Source: Isoetes taiwanensis
Taxonomy: Eukaryota > Streptophyta > Lycopodiopsida > Isoetales > Isoetaceae
Reading direction: 5' to 3'
NCBI GenBank assembly: GCA_021234155.1
Contig: JAJEKV010000058.1
Location: 4,412,600 to 4,476,599, forward strand
DNA length: 64,000 nt
Shown here: positions 6,691 through 63,330 of the stretch, piece after piece
How the letters are laid out: each line of letters begins with the position of its first letter
Position numbering within the stretch: position 1 is the stretch's first letter
Notes under the pieces: generated by a model
What the model was told of the DNA's origin: nothing
Database searches by the model: none
What the model saw: the letters and a program-made list of their open reading frames with translations, nothing else
Program-made: the position numbers and the translations under genes

Positions 6691-6695
6691 AACTC

Positions 6696-6919
6696 TAAAA
6701 TGGACTCTTGACGTGGCACGCTATCTCACCACCCAACCACGAGCCCTCAGCTATGACACAGCTGCCCCAGAGCTCTCCCCCGAGCTACTATATAGCATGC
6801 ACGCCCCTTTAGTCCATCTTTGGACCAAAGCCCTCTTTGGACCATAGGCCCCCTTTTGGACTAAAGGCCCTCTTTGGACTAAAAGCCATCTTTGGACTCC
6901 ACGTCCTTAGCATATAGCA
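6696..6919 (-). repeat. Element C 3' LTR
   Basis: On the minus strand it begins TGCTATATGCTAAGG and ends CCATTTTA. It contains about six imperfect CTTTGGAC units. A purine-rich tract (AAGAGGGGGG on the minus strand) lies just inside it at about 6920-6935. Confidence 0.85.
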
Positions 6920-9900: not shown

Positions 9901-11478
9901 CTGCATAACGTAAACTGTTGGAATAGGGGAAACAATATCATCCTTCACAAACTTGAAGGTCTTTTTAACCCCTTCCAAGGATAACATAACAATACCCGCC
10001 TTCCAATCTATAAGAGGATTAATAGCCTTATGCCATGGCATGCCTAGAATAATATCCATACCTCCAAGGTCAGAAACCATGAAAGAACGTTTACAGATAT
10101 ATCCCTGCAATTGAAATACAACATCCTTGACCATAAATGAAGAAGGCGGAGGGGCAACATTCAAGAAAGCAGAAGCTAATTCTACATCACTTGATAAAGG
10201 AATAGAAGTTAATTTTAGTTCTTTCACCAAGCGGCGTAAATAAAATCAAACTCATTTGCCGGATCGAATAAGACATGTACTTTTTGATCTTGAATAGTAG
10301 CCCAAAATCGTAAGAGACTACTATTCTCAACAAAATCCATATCCGATTTTTCCCGGACCGTAGCCACCTTCTTCCCTTTTCCATCTCCATGAACGAAGCT
10401 ACTTTTTACTTTTTTATCCTCTTTCTTAGTCCCAGACTTAAGAGTAGGTGTAGCGTCCTTTCGTTCCCCTTTCTTCTTTTCCAAGTAAGTAGGGCATTCA
10501 TAAAACTTATGATCAGTTGAATAACAAACAAAGCACTTATTTTCCCGCATAAGCCGCTTCTTGCGTGCTTGATACGATTCCTTTGGCTCTTTAGCCCCAA
10601 CAGGTTCATTATCTGCAACGTCTGTGTGCGGCCGTTTGAATGGCCCAAACCCTGGAGCAGATCCCATTGATTTATCCCGACAACCACTCGCCTCTTTCAT
10701 AGAAACTTTGAGGCCACGTTGAGCATTAATGGCTTCAGTAAGGGCCAAACCTTCCTCCTCTACTTTCTCTCGCCATCTTACTGAGCTCACCAAAAGAAAG
10801 ATTAGCAACTGCGCAGTCGAAGCTTTGCGGTACTAACGATGAACCCCACCCATGAGTTTTTCGGACTTTCAAGTATCATTTTTACTAAGTTGAAGTCCTT
10901 TCTTTAAAACTCGTGCGGCGAAGGATCGAACAGTTTCCATGTTTTGTTGGGTCAACTTATTCCATTCAATGATAAGATCGCGCTCCCAATTATGACCCAA
11001 AAAAATGATTTTGATTTGCTTTTCAAATTCGCCAAAGGTAACAATAGGTTGATCGACCGGGCTGGTTCTTTCTCGGATATCCCACCACCCGGTCTTTGCA
11101 ACCCCATCCAGATGACTTCAAAGAAAATATAACCGAAAGTGTCCTCGTCATCTTTAGTCTTAGCAAAATATGAATTCAAATCCCGAAACCACGCGAACAA
11201 TTCATCCGCATCACTAGTGGCAGCGGAATACTTTTTGAATTCAATTTTGACATTGGCACCCGTTTTGATGCCACTACGTGGACGCTTCGCTTCTTTGCTT
11301 TGAATCGCCCACCAAGGCCGCAGAGAATCCAACTCTTGCAGCTCCGCAATTCGAGCCTCGGCAGCTGCAAGTTTTTCTCTCATGAGCGAATTATCATGCT
11401 CTAACTCAAAAAGTTTTTCCTTGAGCTCTTCATCTTCCAAGTTAACATTGGCAGGGGAACCGACCATCGAAACTTGTT

Positions 11479-11490
11479 GCTCTGATACCA
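11479..11490 (-). other. Element C primer-binding site
   Basis: The minus strand reads TGGTATCAGAGC one base inside the 5' LTR. This is the standard complement of the plant initiator tRNA-Met 3' end used by Ty3/gypsy elements. Confidence 0.85.
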
Positions 11491-11491
11491 C

Positions 11492-11715
11492 TAAAATGGA
11501 CTCTTGACGTGGCACGCTATCTCACCACCCAACCACGAGCCCTCAGCTATGACGCAGCTGCCCCAGAGCTCTCCCCCGAGCTACTATATAGCATGCACGC
11601 CCCTTTGGTCCATCTTTGGACCAAAGCCCTCTTTGGACCATAGGCCCCCTTTTGGACTAAAGGCCCTCTTTGGACTAAAAGCCATCTTTGGACTCCACGT
11701 CCTTAGCATATAGCA
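11492..11715 (-). repeat. Element C 5' LTR
   Basis: It matches the LTR at 6696-6919 over its full length with two transitions. It is followed outward by the target duplication AACTC at 11716-11720. Confidence 0.85.
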
Positions 11716-16184: not shown

Positions 16185-17244
16185 CTTTTGCTGAAAAAGC
16201 CCATGTCTTGATAAGTTGATCCTCGAAAGCCCCCCACTCTACCCTTATGTAAATTTGTTAGCAACATTAGTTCAGTTGAGTAGCACATCGTTGTGGATAT
16301 TTTATCATCTGACCACTCCTTGTCAAGTGATTAATCTTAGCCCACATAGAAGTAAAAGATTGCATCATTAGATAGCACCGCGAAATCCATTTCTTGTTTT
16401 GTAATGCTAATAAGTAACAATAATGTTGAAATTAACTTCTCAATTTGAAAAGAACACGACCATTGTCTTTCTTTCCTAATCTACAAAGACTGTCTACCAA
16501 AGCCGTGTAACTTACGACATATTACACTATTTCCTTGTGGAAGTATGCACAAACAACCCACTTTTAGTGCTTGTTGTAATCCTTCTTTTAAGAATCGGTC
16601 AATAGTACTGCATAAATAGCCCAACGTCTCTTGCTTGTAATCCTGTCTTGAGAATCAATAGTACTGGAATGTAAAAGGACAATTGTGTTAGTACTGGAAT
16701 CTAAAAGCACAGAATACAGAAAAAGGAATAAAAAAACCATAATGAATCACATAACACAGGTCTCCTATGACTAAGAAAAGAACATCAGAGGCACTAAACA
16801 ACCAATGGGTTTTGGCAATGTAGTTTAACACCGAAGGCATTTTTCACAAAAAGGCATTTTAGCAATGTCATTTAAACTACTACACAACTACTTTATTTGC
16901 TCGTAGGTGGTGCGCACCAAGGATATATTCCGGGCAGCACCAACGAAAAACAAATATTCGAAGTATATTCTGTCGGTCGTCACTGAACGGACGTTGGAGG
17001 TATATTCCGTCAGTCGTCACTCGCCAACTCGCAGGAACGGATAATCGAGAGAAACAGTGGAACGGTGCATCAGAAGATCTGAGCAGCCTGAAAAAGAGAA
17101 AGGCCTTCGTTGGGAGATGAAAAAGAAATGACATTTACGTTAAACATTTCTGCCTCCGAGATATGTGCCTGCCTGCCTTCTTGCCGCCACCTATTCTTCC
17201 CAATCCGGCCTGCTTGCTGCCATCTTTTCTTCAAGGAATCTAGG
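16185..17244. other. Intergenic, nothing recognised
   Basis: AT-rich sequence. A short phrase GTATATTC(T/C)GTC(G/A)GTCGTCACT occurs twice near 16960-17025. No gene is seen. Confidence 0.35.
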
Positions 17245-17516
17245 CCACCTTTTCTAATTTTAGCCAAATTTCCTTTCCTTCTACATGTGGACGAATCTGT
17301 TCTTCACAAAATCCGCGCCACCTTTTCTACTTTAGCGAAACTTCCTTTCCTTCTACATCTGGACCAATCTGTTTCTTCACAAAATCTAGACCACCTCTTC
17401 TACTTTACTCAAATTTCCTTTCCTTCTACATCTGGACGAATCTGTTCCTCAAAGAACCTAGACCACCTTTTCTATCTTTAGTCAAATTTCCTTTCCCTCT
17501 ACGTGTAGACGAATCT
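17245..17516. repeat. Minisatellite, about 3.8 units of 72-73 bp
   Basis: Units begin CCACCTTTTCTA-like at 17245, 17318, 17391 and 17463, each with TTTCCTTTCCTTCTACAT and GGACGAATCTGTT. An open frame runs through part of it (to 17481), but its repeats merely mirror the DNA repeats, so I do not call a gene. Confidence 0.85.
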
Positions 17517-35316: not shown

Positions 35317-37092
35317 TGTGACGCTCCCAGAATCTATACGATGCTCCCATCGTACAAATAGGGGAATTCCCCTCCCATGGCGACTACATCACCATGGTAA
35401 GGCCCTCTGTCATACTCGGACCACTTGGGATGGCCAAGCGTCCGGGCGAGGAACACGGAGGTGTCATTCGTCCCACGTCCTCTATGAGAAATCCTATACA
35501 GCGGAAGCGTACGTACACATTAGCATACAACAATCATGCTAAAATAATATACCACCACGAAGGGTGGCCCATCCATCATCATCCATCAAAAGACAGTACA
35601 TACATAATAATATAAGCTAAACACCATGACAAGGCACTACCAAGGCTCAGAAGGGGCCAATTGACGGTCAGGGCCTCAAGATATCAACAGATGGAAGTAT
35701 AACATGGCGTTGGCTATCATAAGACAATGGCTAGGGTAGTCCACTCCATCCGCCCCTCCTGTGCACACTTTGCAGATAGGCTGAATCATGCTATCCGGAG
35801 ACGCAATTCCAAGGAATCACCCTATGGGACTACTCCGGATTACATCTCCCCGGTCCGATGAGGCAGGTCAGAGAGGCGTCTCCTCCCCGAGCATGATGGA
35901 TCCCTGGGTGTACTAAAGAACACGTGCCCCCTCAGTGACCCCCGCATCCGTACCCGACTTACTCCCCTAAATCTAAAGGCCGGCTCACCAGCCCGTTCGA
36001 GTCCACGACGTCCATATAGGCACGTCTCCTGCGACCCAGGGAGTGTCACACCCATACTCGGCCCACACACAGTGACCGGTAGCACATTATAAGAGTCATG
36101 TAGCCGCGCTAGGCAGGACCCCACCCCCGATTCACCATCATACTCGTTATTTGGTGCTGAACCACATCATAGCATCCTCAGCCAGGTTGGCTCTTGTGCA
36201 CAGGCCCCATATATTGGGTATTAAGGGGTCTAGCTAGAGACATCTCTACTGCTAAGAGACTTTTAGGTCTCTACCCTTCCTTAAATTTCCAATACACGGA
36301 GGGAGCAGAAAGAAAGAATATAAACAACATCTAAGTATCCAGAACAACATACGAAAGTGAATTTAATCATTCATCTATTCAAAGAAGTGTCAGCAGAAGT
36401 AGAAGCTATCTAAGGACTAACCAGTCTCTTAGCTGGAGCAAGGGGGGTTCACTCTGAAATCCCGTATGAACCATCTGAGTTATAAGAAATGGGTTATTTT
36501 TGGAGAGCTTTCGTACGAAAATATATGGAAAGGGGTGGTTTTTATCACATTTTGCAATATTTTAAGCCTGTACATTTTCTATATGGGTATTTTTCTAGTT
36601 CTTTTGGACCGTATACTATGGGTTTTCTTTCTACCCTAGTAACGCAGATGGCATATCCATATTGTATATAGGTGAATCCCCCGGGAGCTGGAGCCGTTGT
36701 CACGGAAGGCTTCCATAGCTTGAGGCTGTTGGCAAGTACTGGCAAAGGTGAGCTAAAGCTTGTAGCTGCTGCTCCTCCTCGCTCTCCAATTCGAATTTGG
36801 GCAGAAATGGGGGGTAGGACCCCTATTTCTCCAACCAAATTAGTAAGTCACCCTTGGCCAATCGATTTGGGATAGATGGCACCCCCTTATTGGTGGCATT
36901 TAATTAATTAACTCCAATTAGCATAATTAGGTTAATTATGCTAATAAAACTCATAGTTATCCATTGGTTTTATTAGCGTAGCTAATAAAATCCATTTTAG
37001 GTGAACCCCACTTGGGCCCCTAGGCCTAGTTACATGCTGGTGACGTGTCATGGTATGCATACATATACCGTATAAATACCTGGAACGTCACA
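35317..37092 (-). repeat. Element A 3' LTR (contains a MULE-like insertion)
   Basis: On the minus strand it starts TGTGACGTTCCAGG and ends GGGAGCGTCACA, so the ends are TGTGACG/CGTCACA inverted. A purine tract (AATGGGGGAAGAA on the minus strand) lies directly inside at 37093-37105. Plus-strand positions 35394 onward match 48824 onward. The LTR is about 1.52 kb without the 255 bp added by the insertion at 36440-36685. Confidence 0.75.
36440..36685. mobile_element. 246-bp Mutator-like MITE inside the element A LTR
   Basis: The other LTR copy reads straight through GGCTGGAGCCGTTG at 49892-49905. Here the sequence is split, with a 9-bp duplication AGCTGGAGC at 36431-36439 and 36686-36694. The insert has short inverted ends (GGGGGGTTCAC … GTGAATCCCCC). 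A 9-bp duplication and G-rich inverted ends fit Mutator-like elements. It arrived after element A. Confidence 0.85.
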
Positions 37093-46660: not shown

Positions 46661-46939
46661 GCTGATGCGTGGAGGAGGAGGACAAAAGAAGAGATAAGGA
46701 ATAGCAAATGTAACCCTAAAAACGTTTAAGTAGTTTTTTACTTTTATGTTGACGTCAGCATCACTATTTAAATAATTATTGAAATTATTTATTTCTTACT
46801 ATTATTTGTTTTGAAACAGAGTTTTAGTAAACAAAATCCGATTACATTCATATCTACACAAAATTGACACAAAAAGATGCTTGATGTACAAGCTAGTTGT
46901 GGTCTCCCCGAATTCTTCGGGCGAGAGCCAAAATTTTGG

Positions 46940-47542
46940 TCATAATAGTGACCCTCTTCGCATGGCATAAAGATTCGCATCCCCAAAAAGGGCTATGAGG
47001 TAAGCCTCAGCAACCTCCTGCAGTGCTAGAATAGCAAAAGTTTGGAAGCGCAAGTCGGTCTTAAATTCTTGGGCTATTTCTCGGACCAACCGCTGGAAAG
47101 ACAGCTTCCGTAATAGCAACTCCGTGGTCTTTTGGTACTTACGGATCTCTCGTAAGGCCACAGTACCCAGTCTAAATCGATGAGGTTTCCTCAAGGTAGT
47201 TGCCCTCTGAGTCGGTGCAGGCTTCTTGGGCAAAGTCTTGCCCCCAGAGACTGGGTGGGGCCGTGCGGCATCCACTTGTTCCTGCCAGCGGCTCGAGCTC
47301 GTGTGCTTCCCAATGCTCCCGACAACCTTGAGCTTCTCCTTATATTGGCTTCCCGACTTGTGGGCGGTGGACTTCTGCCCTCTCTTAATGGCAGGCTTCT
47401 CTGTCTGGTCAGGACCGCGCTGGTCCTCCTGTTCTGTGATGGCCTGCTGCTGCTGCTCTTGGGTCTGCTTGGCAAGCTCCTCCTCTCGCCGCTGCTGCTC
47501 AGCCCTCTCGGCCTCTTCCGGAGCAGCACGGGCGGCTGCCAT
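46940..47542 (-). pseudogene. Histone H3-like gene of element A (histone-fold part), broken
   Basis: The main minus-strand frame is 200 codons. Residues about 1-122 are a basic/glutamine-rich tail (QEQQQQ, KPHRFRL at the end). Residues about 123-193 are unmistakable histone H3: the alphaN helix [13 protein letters not shown], alpha1 [12 protein letters not shown], loop 1 KTDLRFQ, and alpha2 [15 protein letters not shown]. By eye this stretch is roughly three-quarters identical to canonical plant H3 and lacks CENH3 hallmarks. It is on the same strand as the element's gag-pol and lies between the 5' LTR and gag. The tail is much longer than in a normal H3. The copy is broken. A chance host histone gene is unlikely, because element B has a related gene at the same place. 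Confidence 0.8.
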
Positions 47543-47640
47543 GCTCTCCTCTGCTTCGACAAAACGCCGGGCCGCAATCCTCTAGATCAGTTCTGCCTGG
47601 TATCTTTCCGGCCGGGCTTGCACGTCCAACTGAATTACTA

Positions 47641-48171
47641 TTAAGTAATCCAGGTTAAGATGAGATGGGACTCACCCCAAGTAAAACTCTGGGTAGCCTC
47701 ATCATATTCATATGGGGGAAGGTCAAGGGTATTGCAGTTGATGATAGCTCTCCCGTCACCCAAGTAAACATATTCATGCCCCCGAGCCTCTGGGTCACCC
47801 CTCTCCATTTCCCTGGTGTCGTCTGCACGGGTCAGCTCCCTGATGCGGGCCGCCTCCCTCCGTATGGCTTTCTCTTCTGGGACTTCCTTGCACTCAGGTG
47901 GATAAAACTTAACCAGCATCATAACTTGGTCAGGTTGCTCGACTATAGTGTATGACTGTTTAAGAAGGTTAAGCTTTATCAAAAAGTGCTCAGAGAGATG
48001 AAAGATAGGGTAAGGTATACGATGCCCGGCAAGAAAACATTGTACAAGCTGGACCAAGAGTAGCTCGACCTTGGCGGGGTCGGTAGCTAGATGTTCTCCT
48101 AACTGAGCAAAAATTTGAGGTATGTTGAGGGAGCCATAGCTCTGGGTACTTTTAGTACATGCCATATTCAT
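47641..48171 (-). other. Element A extra gene 1: frame opening with an H3-like N-terminus
   Basis: A 176-codon minus-strand frame. Its second in-frame ATG (48165) begins MACTKSTQSYG, resembling the invariant H3 start MARTKQT. The rest (FAQLGEHLATDPAKVELLLV, YPIFHLSEHFLIKLNLLKQS, an Arg/Glu-rich stretch) matches no domain known to me. It ends about 100 bp before the frame with the histone fold. Element B shows the same arrangement, so this may be the beginning of an H3-like protein with a very long tail, or a separate gene. Confidence 0.4.
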
Positions 48172-48823: not shown

Positions 48824-49935
48824 GATGGTAAGGCCCTCCGTCATACTCGGACCACTTGGGATGGCCAAGTGTCCGGGCGAGGAACACGAAGGTGTCATTC
48901 GTCCCATGTCCTCTATGGAAAATCCTATACAGCGGAAGCATACATACACGTTAGCATACAACAATCATGCTAAAATAATATACCACCACAAAGGGTGGCC
49001 CATCCATCATCATCCATCAAAAGACAGTACATCCATAATAATATAAGCTAAACACCATGACAAGGCACTACCCAGACTCAGACTCCAAGGGGTCAACTGA
49101 CGGTCAGGGCCTCAAGATATCAACAGACGAAAGTATAACATGGCGTTGGTTAGCGTAAGACAATGGCTAGGGTAGTCCACTCCATCCGCCCCTCCTGTGC
49201 ACACTTTGCAAATAGGCTGAATCATGCTATGACCTGCTTGTAGCCCTCCGGAGACGCATCCCAAGGAATCACCCTACGGGACTACTCCGGGTTACATCTC
49301 CCCGGTCCGATGAGGTATGTCAGAGAGGCGTCTCTCCCTGGCATGACGGGTCCCTGGGTGTACTAGAGAACACGTCCCCCCTCATTGACCCCCGCATCTG
49401 TACCCGACTTACTCCCCTAAATCTAAAGGCCGGTCCACCAGCCCGTTCAAGTCCAGGGCGTCCATATAGGCACGTCTCTTGCGACCCAGGGAGTGTCAGA
49501 CCCATACCCGACCCACACACAGTGACCGGCTATAAGCCTAGCACACTATAGGAGTCCTGTAGCCGCGCTAGGCAGGACTTCACTTCCGATTCACCATCAT
49601 ACTCGTTATCTGGTGCTGAACCACATCATAGCATCCTCATCCAGGTTGGCTCTTGTGCATAGGCCGCATATATTAAATATTAAGGGGTCTAGCTAGAGAC
49701 ATCTCTATTGCTAAGAGGCTTTTAGGTCTCTACCCTTCCCTAAATTCCCAATACATGGAGGGAGCAGAAAGAAAGAATATAAACACCATCTAAGTATCCA
49801 GAACAACATACGAAAGTGAATTTAATCATTCATCTATTCAAAGAAGTGTCAGCAGAAGTAGAAGCTATCTAAGGACTAACCAATCTCTTGGCTGGAGCCG
49901 TTGTCACGGAAGGCTTCCATAGCTTGAGGCTGCAT
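48824..49935 (-). repeat. Element A 5' LTR, partial
   Basis: It matches 35394-36715 without the MITE, with many transitions and a few small indels. Its outer part (about 375 bp by comparison with the other LTR) is missing where element B starts. Confidence 0.7.
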
Positions 49936-49953: not shown

Positions 49954-51639
49954 TGTGACGTTCCAGCCACAATTATATGCCCCCGGGACGATACCGTGAT
50001 CTTGCCACGTCCGCATTACCCGCCCTCCGGTGGCGGTACGCTTAGCGGTAGCCAGGTGAGTAGCCCTAGGGGGCAACTTGCCAGAAATATGTGCAACTAT
50101 TAATGTGCACATTTTCCAATGTACACATTAATGTGGGCACACATTTCCAAGTGGATACTTCATGCCAAGTGGGCCACACCCATAGGTGCAATTAATGTGC
50201 ACATTTTCCAATGTACACATTAATGTGGGCACACATTTCCATGTGTGCACATTTGGCCACCTAGCCCTTAAAGGCAAGTGGGCCCATTTCCAATTATCCC
50301 ACATGCCAAAAGAGGATAATTGGAAACCCTAACCAACCCCCTTGTCTATATAGGGTGGGAAACCCTAACTTGCCCAATTTTCGATTTTTAGGGCTTTTAG
50401 AACTCTGTTTTGGCTGCCTCAACAAAGCCAAACCGCCTCCCTGCACAGGGAGGGGGAGAATTGCATCCTTAGTTTCCCTTGATTCGAGCCGCCGGGATGA
50501 GGATGGTCGAGCTCAGTCGAGGAGGAGCCCCCTCAAGGATCGGTATTTGGCCAATTAGATAGTCTAAACCCTATTTTAGTCGTTGAATCAGTAGGGTTAG
50601 CCTATTAGATTGCCCATAGCAGCCCTCTAGATCTCTAGATAGCAGATTCTAACTAAAGAACCTAACTCTATGTTGTAGATTAGATCTAGTTCTTTAGTTC
50701 TCTGTGAAGTATATGGGTGATGTATCTCTATGAACTCCTTGTATTGGGAAGGGGGGTAGAGACCTAAAGCTTTGTAGTTGATGCTCCTAGAGTAGCCTCT
50801 CTAGCTGCTTGTAGATTCGGCCATTGCACAAGAGCCACACCGGGATGTGGGTGAAGGGGCCGACCGGGCCGAGAAGGAGGTTCATGTCCCGACTCTTGAA
50901 CGGTTCCTCCGGTGTGTGTAAGGGCCCAGGGAACCATTGTGACTAGGTCCAATGGCTTGCCACTAGCGTCTTGGCGGGCAAGGCATGGGCTCGACACCCG
51001 CGGAAGTGGTGTTCACTTTCCAGTGGGTTCAGTCGAATACGGGCAGTGGCCCTCTAGTCACCTTGAGTCAGCATGTAGATCTCTGGAGGGAGTGATCCCT
51101 ACCTGCCCCATCGGAACTGGGAAGATGAGCCCAGGAGTAGCCCTTTTGGCTATGCATCCGTGCTGGCTCTGATCGGGTCCCGACACTTTTCGAACCACTC
51201 GCAAAGTGTGCACAGGAGGGGCGGATGGAGTGGACAACCCTAAGCCATGTTCATATGCCAGCCCAAATCCATTGCCATGAGTGCATGCGCAATGAACTCG
51301 GAGACCCAAGCCGTCGGATCATCCCTTTGAGTCCGGAGCCTTGGGTAGGATTCCCTATGTGATGTGCCGATCTTTGTCTATCAGATATGTGGAGGACCAT
51401 CCTTCGTGATGGTCATATGATGTTGATGTATGTGCTAACGACATGTATGTTTACGCTTCCAGCCTAGGTAGGCCCCGAGGGAGGCGGTGCAATGACCCTT
51501 CCACTCTTCCCACTTTGGAACCCGCCACGGTTGCGGTGTCATGTGGAGGGCCCAGTATTAGCATGGAGCTGGTATGGGGATGAACTCTGTTTGTATATAC
51601 GGTGAGTGCACCGTGATAACACAGTAGGGGACGTCCGCA
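49954..51639 (+). repeat. Element B 5' LTR, 1.69 kb
   Basis: It starts TGTGACGTTCCAG, the same first 13 bases as the element A LTR, and ends CGTCCGCA. It shares with the LTR of A a 35-bp block that is identical (51201-51235 here; 35739-35773 on the other strand). TATATAGG at about 50346 before a G/A-rich stretch could be the promoter box. Confidence 0.65.
50099..50241. repeat. Two copies of a 34-bp near-perfect hairpin in the element B LTR
   Basis: ATTAATGTGCACATT pairs across TTCC with AATGTACACATTAAT (one mismatch) at 50099-50132 and again at 50191-50224. The repeat continues with GTGGGCACACATTTCCA after both. Confidence 0.8.
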
Positions 51640-51641
51640 GT

Positions 51642-51653
51642 TGGTATCGAGCT
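51642..51653 (+). other. Element B primer-binding-site candidate
   Basis: TGGTATCGAGCT two bases after the LTR end resembles the standard TGGTATCAGAGC (tRNA-Met) but is one base shorter inside. Confidence 0.5.
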
Positions 51654-52164: not shown

Positions 52165-52171
52165 TATAAAT
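52165..52171 (+). promoter_or_regulatory. TATA box of the element B histone-like gene
   Basis: CCCTATAAATAG in a good TATA context, 109 bp before the ATG at 52274 and downstream of two foldbacks. Confidence 0.55.
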
Positions 52172-52273
52172 AGAACGGACCCTCCCATTTTTTCCCTGTT
52201 CTTCCCTAGAACTTCGCTGCCGGATCGGCTAAGGCGATCTTCTGGCGCTTAGCTCCGATCGACAAACCGTAAG

Positions 52274-53617
52274 ATGATGGCACGCACCAAAAATCGCTTT
52301 CGGAAGCCTAGGCGGAGCCGAATCCTCCCAGCCAGCTAGCCCCAGAGATCTTCGGGGAATCCTTCAAGAACGCCTTCTCCGGGAAGGCGAATCTTCTTCG
52401 AGCGAGGATACAGGCTCGGACCGGAGCGACCATACAGAGCTCTTAGAGGACGACCGGCCGGATGTCATGCACCAGATTCTCGAGGAGATTGCACAGAGGA
52501 AGGAGGAAGCGGGGGGCAGCAGGAGCAGGCGGGCCAGTCAGCAGCTCAGGACCAGCCAATAGTCCAAGAGCAACCTCGGGAGGACGCCAACCCACAGAGG
52601 GAGCAGAGGGAGCAGGCGGACCAATCGATAGCCCAGAAGCAACCCCAGGCTGAGATCCACCTGCAGGAGGAGCAAGGAAGAGAGGAGCAGCAGCCGCCGG
52701 AACTCACTCAAGAGGAAGAGGCCGACCTCGCCCGCTTCGTCCACAAGTATGACGCCAAAGAGCGCCGCCGGGAGGGGAGAACAAAGAGTCGAGAAGACGA
52801 CCCGACCACAGACAGCGGGTCCAAAAAGAGGAAGGCCAAAGCCATAAAGGCAGGCAAGAGGAAGGTGGTGAAGGTCGGGAAGCGGGGGGTGGATCTCGTC
52901 ATCAACGAGCCGTCGGGAGAGGAGACCCCGCCCACTACCGACGACTCGGACGAAGACTACGTGCCGGGCGCAGACGGGGCAAGCTCTTCAAAGCCCCCGG
53001 TCGTAGAGGAAAAGGTCCCGGAGCAGACAGCCCAAGAACAGGAGGAGACCGGACAGCTAGCGAAGCCCCCACCTTTTCCGACGTGGGATAGAGTCAAAGC
53101 CCCGCGGCCGCAACGGGAAGCATATGTGATAGACCCCCTAAAGGTCTACCAGAAGAGGATCAAGGAGCACAACGCTTATATGGCAAAGTGGGAGGCGTAC
53201 AACGCATATTACCAGGAGCACCGGGTGAGAACGATTGAAGGCGGACACCCGACGAAGAGTCAGACACTGAAGCCCCCTCCACCAAAGCCCAAGCCTCCCA
53301 GAGCACCAGGAAAGAAGCGGGCCGGCAAGAAGAAGTTGGAGAACAGAGCCCTCAAGGAGATCCGCCATTTCCAGAAGAGTTACGGACTCTTGATTCCCAG
53401 GGCGCCGTTCCAACGTTTGGTCCGCGAAGTTATGCAAGAATATAACACAGACATGCGCGTGACCGATGAGATGCTGTTGTGTTTACAGGAGGCGGCCGAA
53501 GCGCACATAGTAAAGCATTTTGAAGACTCAACGGCCTGCACGGTGCACGCGAAGAGGGTTACCCTCATGAGGCAGGATATGTATCTTGCCAGGCACATCA
53601 AGGGAGAACGCCCTTGA
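52274..53617 (+). pseudogene. Histone H3-like gene of element B, CENH3-like fold with long tail
   Basis: The ATG at 52277 (another at 52274) opens with MARTKNRFRKPRR, the invariant H3/CENH3 start MARTK. The 3' part is one clean frame (52865-53617, 250 codons, no ATG at its start). It has an acidic/proline-rich tail, then a histone fold in its last 90 residues (53345-53614): alpha[26 protein letters not shown], loop 1 TDMR, alpha2 [17 protein letters not shown], then [11 protein letters not shown] and [24 protein letters not shown] and RVTLM are shared with plant CENH3, whereas FQRLVRE and the short loop 1 are H3-like. The full set of H3 helices is present in this one frame. Whether the MARTK start and the fold form one protein is not resolved; the gene as a whole is broken at least once. 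A TATA box lies upstream and AATAAA lies downstream. Confidence 0.8.
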
Positions 53618-54211: not shown

Positions 54212-54326
54212 AAGTCCCCCATTTCTCAATTGGCACCCTGCAAATTTGCTCTCCATCGCTAGGGGCGATCTTTCAGCTCCCCCGAGGCGCTCAGATCCGT
54301 TTGATACTCCCTTCTTTGCTAGATCA

Positions 54327-54884
54327 ATGGCCACTGCTGACTTCGGGCGATGGTACAGCGCCAGTGCCCATGCTGCCGAGGCAGATGTCAACGACATCTT
54401 CCAAGTCTTTGGGAAAGAAATCGACATCCAAGCCACGCTAAATGCAACCCAAGCATATAGGCAGGTGCTAGCAGAATTTCAAGCTAGGGTAGGACCTTCC
54501 CTTGTCCAAGTCCCCCCTTGCATAGGATACTTCGTTCCCCGCCCGTCCCTTCAAGCAGCCTTGGGCGATGTCCCCAACATCGCCAAGTACTTGACTAACA
54601 AGGCGCAGAGGCTGCCTGACTACATGGTCCTGACAGCCAATAGGACCAAGTACTTCTCTTACACCGCAGCCCTAGCCATCTTCTTATCCCACCGCGCCGA
54701 GAACCCGATGGGGGCAACCTCTATCCCTCCGATGGAGGTAGACCCCATAGCAGTGCAAGAGGAAGAGCAGATGCTGTTGCAGTATCAACAGGAACAGGAA
54801 GCAACAGAGGATGAAGAGGAGTCGGACAACGAAGGATACACGGAGCTCGACTCAGACGAAGAACGGGCCAAGCGAGCGAGGTGA
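54327..54884 (+). CDS. Element B extra gene 2, unknown protein with acidic tail
   Basis: A 185-codon open frame starting MATADFGRWYSASAHAAEAD. The start is chosen because it follows a TATA box and begins a coherent protein; the frame is also open further upstream to 54246. It has a helix-rich middle (VNDIFQVFGKEIDIQ, AYRQVLAEFQARV, MVLTANRTKYFSYTAALAIF) and an acidic C-terminus (EDEEESDNEGYTELDSDEER). Element A carries a recognisable relative after its own histone-like gene. The helix pattern around YTAALAIF faintly recalls a histone alpha2, but I cannot support a histone call. No function is assigned. Confidence 0.5.
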   Translation: MATADFGRWYSASAHAAEADVNDIFQVFGKEIDIQATLNATQAYRQVLAEFQARVGPSLVQVPPCIGYFVPRPSLQAALGDVPNIAKYLTNKAQRLPDYMVLTANRTKYFSYTAALAIFLSHRAENPMGATSIPPMEVDPIAVQEEEQMLLQYQQEQEATEDEEESDNEGYTELDSDEERAKRAR

Positions 54885-55850
54885 GTGATCAATTCGAAAG
54901 GCGAGATGCCAGGCATCGAGTTGCTCCCCACTTTCGGGCTAGGCATCACAAGCCTAGCCCCTATCATCATCAACGGAGAGGAGTATCTACCTCGGCGACA
55001 TCCGTAACCTTCCCAAATGCGGGGAGAGGGAGCTCAAGGTTGGACTAATCGCCCACCAATCTGCGGGCAGACCGACATGGACGACTTCATCGTCCGGGGA
55101 GCCTCGGACTTCCCGCTGAAGTGAGGGAGGCCGACACCTACCACAGGGGAGACGACCTCCGATATCCGTGCCTACTGGCAAAGATCGTGCAATTGATGGA
55201 CGCGGGAGCCGCCAACGAGAGGAGGAGTTCCTCGCCTCCAAGAACAGATGGGGATCCGTGGGAAGACCACGAGCATCCTAATGCCGAAGTCCTTCGACAT
55301 CACCCCGCCAAAAGGAGAAGGAATCGACCTCGAGAGGCCTCGACCGCGACAATTGAAGACTACGTGGAGCCGACCGAAATTGAGGTCGACGAAAGTACGG
55401 GCGGCCTGCAGCCGAGGCCAAACAAGTTTTGAGAAGCTTCGACGACACACAAACAATTGTGTCGCCAGTACTACTTGCCGTGCCGATGGATGGGAGAATA
55501 GCGGTAATACACCGCAAGTTCAGTCCCGAGGTGAAGAAGGAGTGTTCATGCTGATTGCACTCTCGGGCCGGCGGGGCATGCTCGAATAGCAACAAACGCC
55601 GACTATCTTTGTCTTAGTCAAGAGGGCAATGGCACTTGACCTCTTCGACTTCGCCATACCCCACCGACGTCAGGCGAGATTGGCAGTGACTGCGGCCCTT
55701 ACATCCGACCACAGGGTAGAAGACCTGGTGAGGGCCATACAGGGAGGCTCGTCGGCAAGCATCATCAGGAACTTGGGTCACTCGGTAGGGACGGCCCAAG
55801 TTAAGAAGTTTCTTGAAGACAACCCGTCTTACCGGCGATTTCAAGACTAG
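54885..55850 (+). pseudogene. Element B extra genes 3 and 4 (unknown), broken
   Basis: The region is coding-like in changing frames. It holds a block near 55075-55200 that parallels extra gene 3 of element A (MDDFI followed by a proline segment), an Arg-rich, Glu-rich part near 55250-55430, and a final clean frame 55629-55850 (MALDLFDFAIPHRRQARLAV, then VKKFLEDNPSYRRF). No known domain. Position between the histone-like gene and gag is the same as in element A. Confidence 0.4.
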
Positions 55851-56021
55851 TTAGACTCTTGATCCCGGAGACTTTTTGTATCTGAAATATTATATGATAT
55901 ATGAATATAAATCCTATTGCACTTTAAATGTTTTGTTGATGTATTTTGCCCCACAATTATACCAACAAGCATAATCAATGCAAGAGAACAAAGGAACTAA
56001 CCATATAGCCATGAATCACTT

Positions 56022-59000
56022 GTGGATGCAGCTAGAGGACTAAGCACAGGGGAACGACAACTGCGAGACCTTTATAGAAGAGCTGACCCGCCTGCACCAC
56101 CCCCGGCAAGGAACCTATTGGCAGATATGGAACCCATGACCCCAGAGGAGGAGATATCCCAGATGAGGACGGACCTGGAGCAGATAAAGGCCTTCTTTGT
56201 CCCGCAAAGCGAGTGGGTTCGGTATAACGCCACCGCCGCAAGCATCAGCTCGGAGGGCAGGAAGGGACAAGAAGAGGAGCAAGAGAAGGAGATCCTCCAG
56301 TCCGGAATCTTCCGACTCAAGTTCAGACTCAGACTCCGACTCTGAGGAAGAGGAAGAGCGATTTCGGACCGAAACGAGATGGAAGGCAAAGGAACAATGA
56401 AGAGGGAAGGCAGAGGAACACCCCGGATGGGCGACAAAGAGACACCGGGGCCTCGACTACCGGAAAGAAGGTAGATTCCGCCTTTGGGCAATGTATGGAA
56501 GGCCCGAACCTGGAACGATTCGAGGGGAGAGAACAGTCGATTGGAAGGCGAAGCATGGTGGACGAAATGAGTGAGTATGCAACGCTTTTATGGCATGAAA
56601 GATAAAGACAAAGGCAGAGTTGCAACAGCCAACTTGAAAGGAGCCGCACGGATTTGGTGGAAGGGTTATGCAAAGGCACACGGCTTGGCGAGGGGATGCT
56701 TGTAAGTTCAAGAAGTTTGCAAAAGCCTCAAAAGCGCCATTACGCCCCAAGGGAACATAAGTCCAAAGATGATGCGCCAGTTCTATAGGCTCCAACAGGA
56801 AACAAATCGGCCCGTAAATATACAGAGGAATTCATGAGGCTAAGGTCAGATGTGCGGGTTGGGAGAGAAGCATGCATGGAAAGCTATATCGAGGGGCTGA
56901 ATGAGGAGATCCGCAAGCTTGTGAGAGCAATAAACCCTAAGACAAGATTTAAGCGAGTCCAAGGCTATAAGCTTGCAGGGTCGGGACCTCGTAATAGCGG
57001 CGTATGAAGCAGCGGTATTTCGGGGATAAAGGCAAGGCTTGTAAAGCTATAGCCCAGTGGCAGCAGTCCGAGCCCAGCTAGAGCCCCCACATGGTGGAAA
57101 CCGGGGAAGCAAAGCAGAGAAGAAGCGGGTGTCCTTCAAGGACAAGGGGAGGGGTCAAACTACTCCAAAGCAAGACGATCCTTTTGCAAGCGATGCCCAA
57201 GGAAAAGAGGCAGAGTGCATAGAAAAAGCAAGCCGTGCTTCGTGTGCTTCCGGCCAAGCCATAGATGACAAAGAACCCCTTACGCCATGAGTGCAGCTCA
57301 GCGGAGTTGGGAGATTGGGGCGACTTGTCTGACGACGACGGCGAAGAGGCACGCGACTACATTCAGGGTGAGTGTCATATCTTTGCCGCAATAGATACGG
57401 AGCAAGCAGAGAGCCAGTATAAGGTAATTTCCACAGTAGGGAAGGCCAAGGCTAAGTCCTTCATAGTCTTGATAGACTCAGGAAGTAGCCATAACTTTGC
57501 ATCCCCCAGAATGGTTCAGATGTTGAAGTTGAAGCCGCTAAAGTCAAAGCCAAGACCCGTTGTTTTAGCAAGTGGTGCAGTAAGGCAGACGGCAGGCAAA
57601 AGAATCAAATTCGACATCGACTTGCCAGGGATTAATATCCAGATGGGGGCAGAAGTAATGGGCATTGGCAAGTATGACTTGATCATAGGGATGGAGTACC
57701 TTGGGCCAGCAGGGGCCATTATCGACTGTGGAAAGCGGAAGGTGACCTTCCCAACGCCTGACGGCAAGATCATCGAAATCACAGGTAAAGAAGTTGTCCC
57801 CATCATGCAGTGCATGTCTTCTAAGAGGCTGTTCAAGTGCATCAAGAGCGAGCAGGTGGCATACATCTTCAAGCTTGAGATTAGTGAGCCGGAACCGGAT
57901 GGAAGCAAAGAAGACAAGGTGCTCAGCAAGTTGCCGAAGCAAGTAGCTAAGCTGATCACGGAGTTCCATGATCTCTTTCCAGATGAGATCAAGCAGCTCC
58001 CTCCTTATAGGGGAGTTGAGTGCGAGATTGCACTCGAACCAGGAACAAAGCCAACGAGCAAGGCTCCATATAGAATGACAACGCAGGAATTGTCGGAGCT
58101 AAAGAAGCAGATGGGAGCCGCTTGACCTAGGTTTTATTAGACCTAGTGTTTCGCCATTTTGGAGCCCATTCTCTTCGTTAAGAAGAAGGATGGCGATTTA
58201 AGGATGTGCATAGACTATAGGCAGTTGAACAAGCACACCATTAAGAACAAGTATGCAGCTCCCGGATCAGATGACTTGATGGATCAGCTCCAAGGTGCAA
58301 AGATCTTCTCCAAAATCGACTTAAGGTCGTTATCATCAGATCGGGATAAAGGAAGAAGATATCCATAAGACCGCCTTAACGCGGTATGGGCACTATGAGT
58401 TCCGCGGAATGCCTTTCGGCTTATCGAATGCCCCCGCAACGTTCATGAGGCTCATGAACTACATCTTCGGGGAGTTTTAGACACCTTTGTGATTGTTTTC
58501 TTTGATGACATTTTGGTGTATAGCGCATCCCTTGAAGAGCACGCACAACACTTGAGAAGAGGCCGGAGAAGTTGAAGAGGCACCGGTTATGCGCCAAGTT
58601 GTCGGGTGCCACCGCTAAAGGGGAAGGTGGAGTATCTAGGACATGTGATCTCTCGCCAGAAGGCATCTCGGACGGATCCCGCAAAGATTGAAGACGTCAT
58701 TCGATGGCCTCCGGGCCAAGAATGTGCATGAAGTCGAAGTTTTCGGCCTAGCGGTACTACAGAAGTTAAGTAAAGAACTTTGCCAAGATAGCAGCCCCGC
58801 CAAACGGACTTGACGCGGGCGGAGAAAGTGAAAGATTGGGCGAGCATTGGCACAAGAAAGCCCGCTGTGGTTTGAATTGTTGAAGGAAGCTTTAACAACA
58901 GTTTCCAGCCTTTAACCCCTTACCGGCGGACCGGTGAAAGATAAGCTTGTAGCTGATCGACGCGAAAGTAAGATAGCTACAGTGCGGTTTATGCAAGAAG

Positions 59001-60753
59001 AGCGCGTGGTAGCGTATGATTCCGTGAAGATGAACGACGCGAAACACGCTACCCCACGCGACGATCAAGAATTGCTTATGGTTGTCGGGGCATTAAGAAT
59101 TTGGAGGCACTACCTTTTGGGAAGGAAGTTCCAGTTGGATACAGACCACCAGAGCCTCCAATATGTATTCACGCAACCACACCTCAACTTGAGGCAGAGA
59201 AGGTGGATGGAGTTCCTTGAAGAGTACGACTTTGATATAGTCTACAAGCCAGGGAAGCTCAATGTGGTAGCGGATGCGCTTTCAAGGCATCCCCTGACAA
59301 CTAGAGTGCATTGCAATGCAATTTCGACGATCTCCAAACGACTTTGGTAAAAAGATTGAAGAGTCCTTGCCAACGGACGTGGATTTCAAGGAAGTATGGG
59401 CAAGTCTCTCTAGGGAGGCTAGAACAGATAAGGAGCGGGAGGCCTTTAAGCATTTTAAGAAGGAAGGCAACCTGTTATACCATAAGAACAAGTTGTGCGT
59501 ACCCGAATCATCAGGTGTAAGGAAATTGATCCTCCACGACACGCACAACAGCCCAATAGCTGGCCATGCGGGATTCATGAAAACAAATTTCAAAGCACGC
59601 AGCAGCCTATTATTGGCCAGAATGAAGAAGCAGGTGTGGCTCGCTACATCAAGGAATGCCCGCCTATGTGCGGTGAGACAAAGGCGGAGCAGCTTCGAAT
59701 TCCAGGAGCATTGGAGCCATTAGCGGTGCCAAACGCTAAGTGGGAGGTAATCAGCATGGATTTCATCACAGGACTCCCAAGAACAGCAAGAGGGAAGGAT
59801 GCCTTGATGGTAGTGGTCGACAAGTTGTCTAAGATGGCACATTTTGTGCCTTGCAGGACCACAGATACAGCTATGGATACAGCAAAGCTCTTCACCAAAG
59901 AGATCTTCAGGCTTCATGGCATGCCAAGGGAGATCATCTCCGACAGGGATCCGAAGTTCATGAGCGCCTTTTGGCAAGACCTCTTTGCGACAATCCAGAC
60001 GAAGCTATCCATGAGCACGGCATACCATCCTCAGACGGATGGCCAGACGGAGCGGACCAACAGGATTTTAGAGGACATGCTACGAAACTATGTCTGGAAT
60101 AAGCAAAGTATGTGGGAAGAATTTATTCACTTGGTGGAGTTTGCATACAATAGCACCAAGCAGGAATCATCCCAAATGTCGCCGTTTATGATCAATTACG
60201 GCTATCAGTGCCTAACTCCAGATACTTGGCACAACCCCGTGTCAAAAGTGGAAGTTTCGCAGCAGATGTTGGCCGATATGCAGCAGCTTGTGGAAGAAGT
60301 TCGAGGTTATCTGCTAGCAGCAAGAAGTCGTCAGAAGAGCATCGCCGACAAGCATCGAACAGTAAGAGAGTTCAAAGTTGGAGATGATGTTTGGCTCAAG
60401 ATCAAGGTGAAGCAGGCGAAGCTCAGGATCGGGAATTGCAAGAAGCTTGCTCCAAGGTGGGCTGGACCTTTCAGAATAGTCAAGAGAGTAGGTAATCAAT
60501 CCTACAAGCTAGACTTGCCAGCACACCTAAAGATTCATAAGGTCTTCCACGTGAGTTTGTTGAAGAAGCATACTCCAAATCCAGACGAAGTCTTGGATTC
60601 TCCAACATTGTTGGAAATGACGGAGGAGCAGCTGGAAATAGCCCCAGAATTGATTCTTGATAAAGCTTTCAAGAAAACGAGGAGATCAGAATTCCTCCAG
60701 TATTTGGTCAAGTGGAAACACTTACCAGTGGAAGACGCGACGTGGGTACTTAA
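56022..60753 (+). mobile_element. Element B gag-pol region with chromodomain
   Basis: Plus-strand parts in order: gag (56.0-57.25 kb, EEEISQMRTDLEQIKAFF, basic RRAGRDKKRSKRRR-type stretch); protease (57.44-57.6 kb, IVLIDSGSSHNFASPRM); reverse transcriptase (58.15-58.65 kb, [18 protein letters not shown]); RNase H (58.95-59.3 kb, RIWRHYLLGRKFQLDTDHQS, VVADALSRHP); integrase (59.5-60.3 kb, MDFITGLPRTARGKDALM, IISDRDPKFMSAFWQDLF, YHPQTDGQTERTNR); and a chromodomain-type end (LQYLVKWKHLPVEDATW). The integrase part is the best preserved. About ten breaks in all. Confidence 0.85.
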
Positions 60754-60933
60754 GAGGAGGCCTTAGAAGACTCTGACTCTTCTGAGGCCTTTTTTGACGT
60801 GCCTTCCTCTGAGGAGTCCGAGGAAGAGGGAATTGAAGATCTGGAAGTCTCCTCGAAAGCCTCCACTGCAGGTAGCTGTTCTGATTACTCGGAGGATGAA
60901 GCCGAGTTTGAAGAAATGAAGAAGCTTCTCTAA
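60754..60933 (+). other. Acidic open stretch just past the end of element B
   Basis: The 59-codon stretch between stops reads EEALEDSDSSEAFFDVPSSE and ends DEAEFEEMKKLL. It is very rich in Ser, Glu and Asp. It starts where similarity to element A's pol stops. It may be the end of another retroelement or of the sequence into which B was truncated. Origin unknown. Confidence 0.3.
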
Positions 60934-61180: not shown

Positions 61181-63330
61181 TCTTGAATCTGGCTCTCACA
61201 TTCCCGTGAGAACACACTAACACCAACAGTCTTCATCCTCTTCTTGGTACCCTCCACAAAGGGAACTGGTCTAGCCAATGTTTTGCCATTGAAGTCCTCT
61301 ACCACTTGTAGACTTGGGGTTGATCCCATGGTTAGTGTACTACTCATTAACCTCTCCAACTTCAAACTAACTTCTTCACGTAACAGTGAAGTCGCCTTGC
61401 AATGCCAATTGAGGGGTAGTAGATATGGTAGAGGCAATATGGGAAATAGTGGCATGGATGCTAGCTTGCAAGTTCGGAGTTGTTGTCTTGGGAAGGCTTT
61501 CCTCCTCACAAATATCATCAGCCCCCAATGTGTCACCTTCAATGTCATCCTCACCATTGAAGGTAGTAGTATCGATAGGATCATCATCATATGCCTCCCC
61601 AAAATACCTCAAGTTCTCTAAACCGCCAGCTTGAGAGCCATGTAGAGTTCCACACACTCTTAAAATGTCCTCCTCCTTGTAATTGGCCATCATTTGGATC
61701 ACTTTCACTTGGTGCTTGCACATGTTGCCTTTCATCCCCCATGGACAATCACAAGAAGACCAATGCTCGTGGGCAACATCCACTAGGTAAGGCACAGCTT
61801 CTCTATCCTCGGCCCATGCATCCATATTTTGACTCCATACTTCTGCTCTACCAGCCTTGAAATCCAACCATCTGACAGCCTCGTCTGGAATGACTCTTGC
61901 ACCTATGATTGCTGTTTCAACAATGTGCTCCTGTTTCCTATTCACTTTGAACCCTTCATCTTTCTTGAACCTATCATATAACAAATGGGTCTCCAATCTA
62001 CAAGTCAACATGTATATCAACCAATCAATTCTCCTTCCTCTTAAAGCATGCTTTGACAAACCTAGCCTTCTCTTCATCTGGTTATGATATGCCTCTATTG
62101 CAGCATTTGTCTCCTGGTTGGCATGAGGATACATCCTTGTGGCAATGATCCAATGGGTGATATTATTGGTCCAAACCCTATTCATGTACTTGATCAACCT
62201 CTTCCACCCTTTGTACTTAACCTTGAATTCATCTAGAAGCCTTAATGCCTCTCTTCTACATTCTTCCATGTATTCCTTACCAAACCTTCCATCTCCATCA
62301 ACATGTGTGCCATACATAATATGGCCGAGATCTTTTGAACATCTCACCCCCGATCTTCTTGTTCTTCACTTTCGCTTAAGAAGGAATTTCATCCGGTTTC
62401 TTGAACATGCCAAATGCACAAGCGTATTCTAGCTTCGGCCAAACCTCTTCCAATGAGTTGATTTCAGCCTTGGCATCATCAACAATGAAACAAGAGGGCT
62501 TCCAAGTCGGGTCTACATGGTGGATGTGCTCTTTCATAGCAAGAAGCCATGGTTTGATATCCTCCTCGGAGTGACTAGAAGAGAGAACCCAACAAATGGG
62601 GACACCATTGCCATGGCTATCATAAACAAGTAAGGTGTACATGTGCTATAGCAATGGTCATTTGTTTTGAAGGTAGAGTCCATGGCCACAGCATTCTCTC
62701 TACCGTGCTCCAACAAAATTTTTCTTTGGAAAGGAGTCATGATACCCAAGACAAAAGGAACTCCCTCTTGATAGATAAAAACACTGTCCGCATGTAGCTC
62801 CACCCACATCCTTATACTTAGAGCAACATCTTCGTGGAGCATCCAAGTATCCTTGGCAACCTTGCGAGAGAGGTTGTGAAGGTCGTCCATGTCAAGAAAT
62901 TGATCTCTAGTCTTCTCACAATTGGGATCCATTCTCTTCTTCAAGGCCCATTCCTCTTCATCTTTGTCGGTAGACCTCTTTATGGGTATGATTCTTAAGT
63001 AGGAGGTTCCTAGCCCAAGCCCTCTTCTCCATAGACAACCAAGGGGCAACTTCATGCCCGGGTCCTCACGCATTCGGGATCCCTGTGTCCCATGGCAAAT
63101 TTTCCCATGTACATCAATATGCTCCATCACATGGTAACGTGATCTTAGTGCATAGGGGTTTCGGTATAGTTGCTTCACAAAGTGAAATGACACCTGCACC
63201 CCGCTTGATACTCATTCCCCTTTGTCTTTTCTTGTAGTGGGATCCTCTTTCTTGGCTTCAAATGACAAGGGCCTTCGTTGTCTTGCTTTTTACTTCCGAG
63301 CTTGGTTGCGCAAATCTTTTGGCCCATAAC
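61181..63330 (-). pseudogene. Mutator-like (MULE) transposase with SWIM zinc finger
   Basis: Minus-strand frames give a near-complete MULE transposase. First is an N-terminal zinc-finger-like part (VSFHFVKQLYRNPYALRSRY … HIDVHGKICHG, 63090-63200). Then comes the DDE core: first Asp in AVAMDSTFKTND near 62670, second in CFIVDDAKAEI near 62480, Glu in NAAIEAYHNQMKRRLGL near 62075. Next is the SWIM finger CDCPWGMKGNMCKH near 61735 (CxC…CxH), followed by an acidic tail (GEDDIEGDTLGADDICEEE). At least two frame changes, near 62640 and near 62350-62380, break it. It is on the opposite strand to element B and starts soon after B's truncated end. FAR1/FHY3 proteins have a similar layout, but the frameshifts and location favour a transposon. 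Confidence 0.75.

Follow-up and report, generated by a model that had tools for sequence, protein, structure and literature searches.

Ogre/Tat retrotransposons carry an additional ORF upstream of gag, and the anti-silencing VANC proteins of VANDAL elements protect the element that encodes them from silencing by the host; neither the Ogre/Tat accessory ORF nor VANC is known to be a histone. Among the chromoviruses, in a survey that covers lycophyte elements, the group II chromodomains lack Y24 and Y48, and their ligand is not established (PMC3350952). Core histones are encoded by viruses: the long-tailed H4 of bracoviruses is reported to join host nucleosomes and to alter expression, and among six single viral H3s, three carry an extended tail (PMC9145170). 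The string "retro" is absent from the main text of this review of viral histones (PMC9145170), and no description of a retrotransposon-encoded histone was found in the titles and abstract openings searched, which covered few subscription papers and do not prove absence.

Here we describe element B, found in a window of 64,000 nucleotides from Isoetes taiwanensis (contig JAJEKV010000058.1). There is hardly any doubt that element B is a Ty3/gypsy-type LTR retrotransposon with a chromodomain integrase and an H3 ORF between the 5′ LTR and gag. The first-pass annotation of this DNA had proposed an H3 fold encoded by a mobile element, which is supported, the copies being many and under strong purifying selection; it had also described this H3 as CENH3-like and suggested that it could steer integration to centromeres or alter centromeric chromatin, and the CENH3-like character and centromere targeting are not supported.

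Anatomy of element B and of the related element A

The frame of 250 codons at 52865–53617(+) is present as originally annotated, and so is the H3 fold in its last ~90 residues, which matches the Pfam Histone family (97 bits, E = 1.3e-27) and H3 chains in the PDB, where the best 60 of 179 matches are all named H3 (top E = 8.7e-29). Position 52865 is not the start, however: the open frame extends over 52340–53617 (425 codons), and the true start of ORF1 is the ATG at 52274/52277 (MMARTK), which in the window copy is followed by an in-frame stop (Table 1). The tail of this copy reads ARTKNRFRK. The one reverse-strand frame read across 52865–53617 contains five stops.

Table 1. Positions, within the window, of the features of elements A and B
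Feature	Position	Strand	Remarks
Element A 3′ LTR	35394..36728	-	90.9% blast identity between 35394-36439 and 48825-49898; 36687-36728 (42 bases) also identical
Element A H3 frame pieces	46902..48171	-	broken H3 between its LTRs
Element A 5′ LTR	48825..49932	-	K2P 0.068 over 1,043 sites
Element B 5′ LTR	49954..51639	+	starts TGTGACGT
Primer-binding site, initiator tRNA-Met type	51642..51652	+	imperfect in window copy
Candidate internal promoter, TATAAATA box	52165..52172	+	112 bp before histone start
ORF1, H3 protein: tail, then long insert, then fold	52274..53617	+	stop at 52337-52339 in window copy, open 52340-53617
H3 fold of ORF1, last 93 codons	53336..53614	+	Pfam, PDB, alignment; dN/dS 0.034-0.038
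Candidate poly(A) signal AATAAA	53668..53673	+	50 nt past ORF1 stop
ORF2, protein without Pfam family, broken in window copy	54297..55844	+	69% amino acid match to open copy L048
gag region	56016..57298	+	tblastn to open L048 frame
Protease, reverse transcriptase, RNase H	57265..59350	+	several frames in window copy; tblastn
Integrase with C-terminal chromodomain	59495..60766	+	rve 3.2e-10, Chromo 2.9e-7; chromo part ~60644-60748

The order of element B is 5′ LTR, primer site, ORF1 (H3), ORF2, gag-PR-RT-RNase H and integrase-chromodomain. The element opens with TGTGACGTT at 49954, and 9 of the 16 fetched copies begin at most 4 bp from this position, with flanks that look unrelated. The LTR ends in ACGTCACA in 10 of 16 other copies, though not in the window copy, and the primer site comes after; the LTR termini of the fetched copies form a perfect 8-base inverted repeat, TGTGACGT...ACGTCACA. 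Just after the 5′ LTR, TGGTATCAGAGC, which we take to correspond to the tRNA-Met primer site, is exact in 11 of 16 copies. No 3′ LTR of this copy was found inside the window. Where the 3′ end of element B would be expected, 61376–63211(−) holds frames that resemble a MULE/FAR1-type transposase and include a zinc-finger-like motif.

In the open copy L048, gag, PR, RT and RNase H occupy one frame, which matches Retrotrans_gag (1.4e-17, with a zinc knuckle below the cut-off), RVT_1 and RT_RNaseH; RVP_2 is matched by a frame of the window copy. Element B shares with chromoviruses LTRs at both ends, as seen on contigs C1050 and C8, a primer site, the order PR-RT-RNase H-integrase and a chromodomain after the integrase. 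By eye, only one of the three aromatic cage residues is kept in this chromodomain, Y24 and Y48 being replaced. For ORF2, which counts 507 codons from its Met in L048, a Pfam search at E up to 1 gave nothing, and the best PDB match (E 0.4) is not credible; with one homolog detected (P0126, 47% identical over 95%), it is apparently a conserved retrotransposon protein without an assigned role. The assembly was built from Nanopore reads and polished with Nanopore and Illumina data (PMC8566536), so that some of the frameshifts in repeats may be assembly errors.

Upstream of ORF1, the TATAAATA box is found in all 30 copies compared, at −109 to −114 in each of the 25 in which the start codon was located; downstream, AATAAA follows the stop by 50–52 nt in 17 of the 30, the other 13 having none in the 150 nt examined. 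In one alternative view, the H3, together with host H4, would compact or chaperone the element cDNA in the particle or the pre-integration complex, much as viral DNA is packed by viral histones. Giant-virus histones form nucleosome-like particles and sit on virion DNA (PMC9145170, PMC11500106), and the H3 ORF is encoded beside gag. Nevertheless, we consider such a packaging role quite improbable: no H4 partner is seen in the element, ORF2 having no Pfam match, and a candidate TATA box of its own before ORF1 suggests a product that is not tied to the particle.

Element A lies on the opposite strand, and its integrase is ~80% identical to that of element B, so the two elements are related; each bears an H3 upstream of gag-pol. 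In element A the tail start is degenerate (MNMACTKSTQS, within 47641–48171), a frame at 46940–47581 holds most of the fold, and the C-terminal piece of the fold (46902–46973) is in a different frame. This H3 is 78% identical to host H3 residues 36–113.

The 11-base LTR start of element B has further matches at 37082–37092(−) and 35317–35327(+), with 0 and 1 mismatch, respectively, perhaps another LTR fragment inside or beside element A. Elsewhere in the window, 6695–11715(−) is a young, small Ty3/gypsy-type element with pol frames between 225-bp LTRs that are 99.1% identical and 4.8 kb apart, and no histone was matched in it at E up to 1e-3. At 17222–17516, a unit of ~73 bp is repeated in a short tandem array.

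Copies in the genome and selection on the H3 frame

Searching the genome (1,658,258,908 bases in 1,110 contigs) with the 250-residue histone query gave 11,726 first-look candidates, the best 150 of which were scored and yielded 151 matches; among the 150 listed, the matched stretch contains no stop in 113 and one to three stops in 37. Together with the Pfam and PDB matches to H3, these many copies rule out ORF1 as a chance ORF. Element B is very abundant, with thousands of candidate copies.

The histone is a fixed part of the element, as follows from its pairing with RT and LTR sequences at set distances. The histone matches and the best 150 RT matches (from 32,269 first-look candidates), chosen separately, form 34 same-strand pairs within 20 kb versus a single opposite-strand pair, and the spacing is 4.5–5.4 kb in 27 of these 34. 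The LTR search, in which the best 40 of 6,113 candidates were scored, gave 41 matches, 40 of which entered the comparison of positions (a second, partial match at C1036 was left out). Twelve histone-LTR pairs lie within 20 kb: the LTR is 2.5–2.9 kb before the histone in six, the window copy included, and 8.8–9.4 kb after it in four, and the remaining two are off the expected distances (5.7 kb before, 5.4 kb after). For example, on contig C1050 a histone match (7978788) is located between LTR matches at 7975934 and 7987588; the LTR-LTR distance is 11.65 kb here and 11.71 kb on C8. Positions 50.1–57.6 kb of the window are matched by 13.4 to 16 of 16 copies per 100-bp bin, and since these copies were chosen by their histone, the informative part of this coverage is that LTR and pol accompany it. 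The suggestion of the first-pass annotation that the H3 fold belongs to a mobile element is supported, and multi-copy support, the lack of which it had named as a refutation, is large.

In a search of the genome for the Histone family, the best 150 of 8,705 first-look candidates were scored: the top 15 matches reach 164–165 bits, and all 8 of those fetched are canonical H3. The remaining 135 score lower, with many in open frames of more than 300 codons, and we infer that many of them are element copies. Annotators should be aware that, in genomes of this kind, element genes may account for many "histone H3" matches.

Plant elements transduplicate host genes, and the H3 might accordingly be a passenger, a host gene that was picked up and does nothing for the element. 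This possibility is disfavored by the pattern of substitution. In the best 30 copies of the histone search (435 pairs), pooled dN/dS is 0.038 for the fold and 0.125 for query residues 1–150, which belong to the insert, with median pairwise dS of 0.675 and 0.637, respectively; differences in the fold at codon positions 1, 2 and 3 number 2378, 505 and 10490. Among 11 different intact full-length copies, dN/dS is 0.034 for the fold, and successive segments from behind the tail towards the fold give 0.325, 0.270, 0.211, 0.131, 0.152 and 0.117. The insert is under moderate constraint and the fold under far stronger constraint. Choosing copies by their protein match lowers dN, but ascertainment fails to explain the low values of the fold because neutral copies picked alike, the best 30 of 11,726 in a simulation (one run, star tree), gave 0.58. 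Given this difference and the presence of an H3 at the same place in two related elements, we reject the passenger gene as extremely improbable. The values for the fold are far from 1, near which the first-pass annotation would have seen its reading refuted, and it is nearly certain that natural selection has preserved the H3 fold of element B.

The copies in the comparisons of coverage, start points, dN/dS and stops were all selected via their histone. In a set of 17 copies, stops number 0 in the fold, 14 in the insert, 71 in ORF2, 73 in gag and 38 in PR-RT, a noisy count, and dN/dS for insert, ORF2, gag and PR-RT is 0.30–0.50 in the same copies, inflated by frameshifts. RT sequences picked likewise are 94–100% identical, versus 79–100% for the whole 250-residue histone query. 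The tail shows 149 synonymous and 0 non-synonymous differences, a biased test because the copies were selected for the exact tail and full-length frames with an altered tail, e.g., L026, were excluded.

Tail, insert and fold compared with H3, CENH3 and other proteins

Intact full-length ORF1 is represented by 11 different copies of 398–439 codons that read MMARTKQTARKP... or NMARTKQTARKP..., i.e., a MARTKQTARK start as in mature H3, then ~300 inserted residues, charged and of low complexity, and then a complete H3 fold. The tail is kept for residues 1–9 only (ARTKQTARK), and the insert stands in for the rest of it. Among 30 copies examined, the start was found in 25, with ARTKQTARK exact in 17, synonymous codons varying, and tail codons altered in the other 8. 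Recurrent block changes in codons 4–10 are seen in L009, L013, L014, L018, L023, L026, L028 and L030; several resemble paired small indels, and the cause could be real decay or, where the site is methylated, a fault in the assembly. Residue 10, corresponding to H3 Ser10, is Pro in all 17 exact-tail copies. Many copies start with MMARTK, from which processing might fail to expose the natural Ala1.

Over 88 residues, the fold of element B shares 59% identity with H3 of the host. The residue is the same as in host H3 at 10 of 13 H3-H3 bundle positions and at 11 of 19 DNA-contact positions; among the H4-facing positions 16 of 30 are unchanged, and by eye 8 of the 14 replacements look conservative. 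Altered nucleosomal DNA contacts include R63P, F84V, Q85T and S86D.

Proteins with the same plan of tail, insert and fold were found in the protein database at E up to 0.001, in the best 120 of 514 and the best 120 of 432 matches, the second set coming from 8,000 scored candidates. Five named animal proteins were dropped, and 178 proteins among the matches listed are marked "ena"; their alignments to the query cover approximately the fold only (19–23%). Of these 178, 62 start with M[AV]RTK, have 298–427 residues and a long insert, and carry the H3 fold at the end, 50 have the exact MARTKQTARK start, and many others are shorter pieces; residue 10 in the 50 is N (24), D (21), S (3), H (1) or G (1). 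Their number and the presence of near-copies suggest that the "ena" proteins are element-encoded. The inserts of elements A and B and of the "ena" family differ, which suggests more than one origin or repeated remodelling.

Among the matches listed, P0003–P0122 and P0131–P0189 make up a large H3 family of 143–483 residues. Its clusters contain between 1 and 42 sequences each, and its tails are of two types, MARTKQTARK... and MGPPPGKKPKK.... Three scans of viral contigs for relatives (24, 52 and 8 pattern stretches) confirmed none.

These tails raise the possibility of a soluble decoy, in which the H3 tail and fold would tie up H3 chaperones or the writers and readers of silencing without being stably built into chromatin. 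Retention of the tail as a K4/K9 peptide only, the change of residue 10 to P in the 17 exact-tail copies of element B and to N or D in 45 of the 50 exact-tail "ena" proteins, and the long, charged insert all are consistent with such a role. However, the fold is much more constrained than the insert, which would be needless for a tail decoy alone, and the predicted proteins P0131 and P0146 of the "ena" family have no H3 tail; we regard a decoy as unlikely.

The first-pass annotation had further proposed a CENH3 mimic that could steer integration to centromeres, based on RVTLM and a second short motif of the fold, and both do match Arabidopsis CENH3. Other features of the protein argue against a CENH3-like character. 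Loop 1 is 2 residues shorter than in the plant CENH3s and CENP-A compared, without an insertion relative to H3, the C-terminus is of the H3 type (GER), and the fold is closer to host H3 (59% identity) than to either plant CENH3 (54%). Intact copies keep ARTKQTARK before an unrelated insert; Arabidopsis CENH3 also begins with MARTK. Element B shares short motifs with plant CENH3 but differs from it in loop 1 and in its C-terminus, and it retains ARTKQTARK.

The tree comprised 38 rows, namely, 11 of the 30 copies of element B, 18 of the 178 "ena" proteins, element A, 2 host H3s and 6 references. In the free tree, element B, a long branch, stands beside plant CENH3 with support 91/80, not starred. 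When constrained to join the "ena" H3-with-insert family, it gives a log-likelihood 7.3 higher than the free tree (AU p 0.71), and when constrained with "ena", canonical H3 and element A, 7.5 higher (p 0.75); with canonical H3 and element A alone, the log-likelihood is 6.2 lower (p 0.23). The better-likelihood tree thus joins element B with the H3-with-insert proteins, and neither this nor the free tree is rejected. Finally, the copies of element B are scattered: 48 copies on 11 long contigs do not depart from uniform placement (KS p 0.33), a weak test because the contigs are not whole chromosomes and the positions of centromeres are not known. On account of loop 1, the GER end, the tree, in which neither placement is rejected, and the scattered copies, we reject the CENH3 reading as originally put, and consider a centromere-steering mimic very unlikely.

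A possible role in chromatin and comparison with known systems

Transposon silencing works largely via H3 methylation. The fact that these elements have their own version of H3, kept intact by selection, suggests that they may act on the chromatin that normally silences them. Specifically, we hypothesize that the element H3 would pair with host H4 and enter nucleosomes as an element-made H3 variant, where its altered tail and linker would change the chromatin on copies of the element or on its new DNA, such that the copies stay expressible or the element's own machinery is attracted. Such a counter-defence, in which the parasite supplies the histone itself, is a proposition that we hold in even balance. 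It is favored by the anatomy of the element, the selection on the fold, the H3 bundle, H4-facing and DNA-contact positions that match host H3, the tail, the occurrence in two elements, the 62 "ena" proteins of the same plan, the candidate TATA box and the precedent of bracovirus H4; it is weighed down by the changed DNA contacts, the MMARTK start, the altered tails, the moderate constraint on the insert and the more conserved RT.

A direct loop, in which the integrase chromodomain would read K9me on the element's own H3, was considered and rejected: the domain lacks two of three cage residues and its aromatic cage is incomplete (by eye; criterion of PMC3350952).

The counter-defence proposal could extend to a broader, more tentative view: LTR retrotransposons would have evolved their own H3 variant lineages, whose element-specific nucleosomes evade or redirect heterochromatin. 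Under this scenario, which is possible although we lean against it, a host H3 was captured, the K4/K9 tail peptide was kept, the Ser10 phospho-switch was lost and a new linker was acquired; judging from residue 10, the tail is perhaps freed from that switch. If this is true, the substrate of the host's histone code comes from the element itself. More generally, if a retrotransposon produces an H3 of its own that is strongly selected, the logic of silencing would be reversed, and it could be asked in a natural setting whether providing the nucleosome lets a parasite win.

Like the Ogre/Tat and VANDAL elements, element B has an accessory ORF outside gag-pol. With the chromoviruses, including those of lycophytes, it shares the order gag-PR-RT-RNase H-integrase-chromodomain and the tRNA-Met primer site, and its chromodomain, by eye, is like those of group II in having neither Y24 nor Y48 (PMC3350952). 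It differs in two additional ORFs before gag, one of them a histone; the sections of the chromovirus survey covered here describe no histone ORF (PMC3350952). Bracovirus H4 is the nearest worked precedent for the proposed mechanism. As in the viral systems (PMC9145170), the core histone is produced by a selfish or virus-like element and has a tail that is long and altered; there, however, the carriers are DNA viruses or polydnaviruses, whereas here the carrier is an LTR retrotransposon whose candidate copies number in the thousands. Histones encoded by DNA viruses are already known, and what is apparently new here, as far as the titles and abstract openings searched go, is the retrotransposon carrier.
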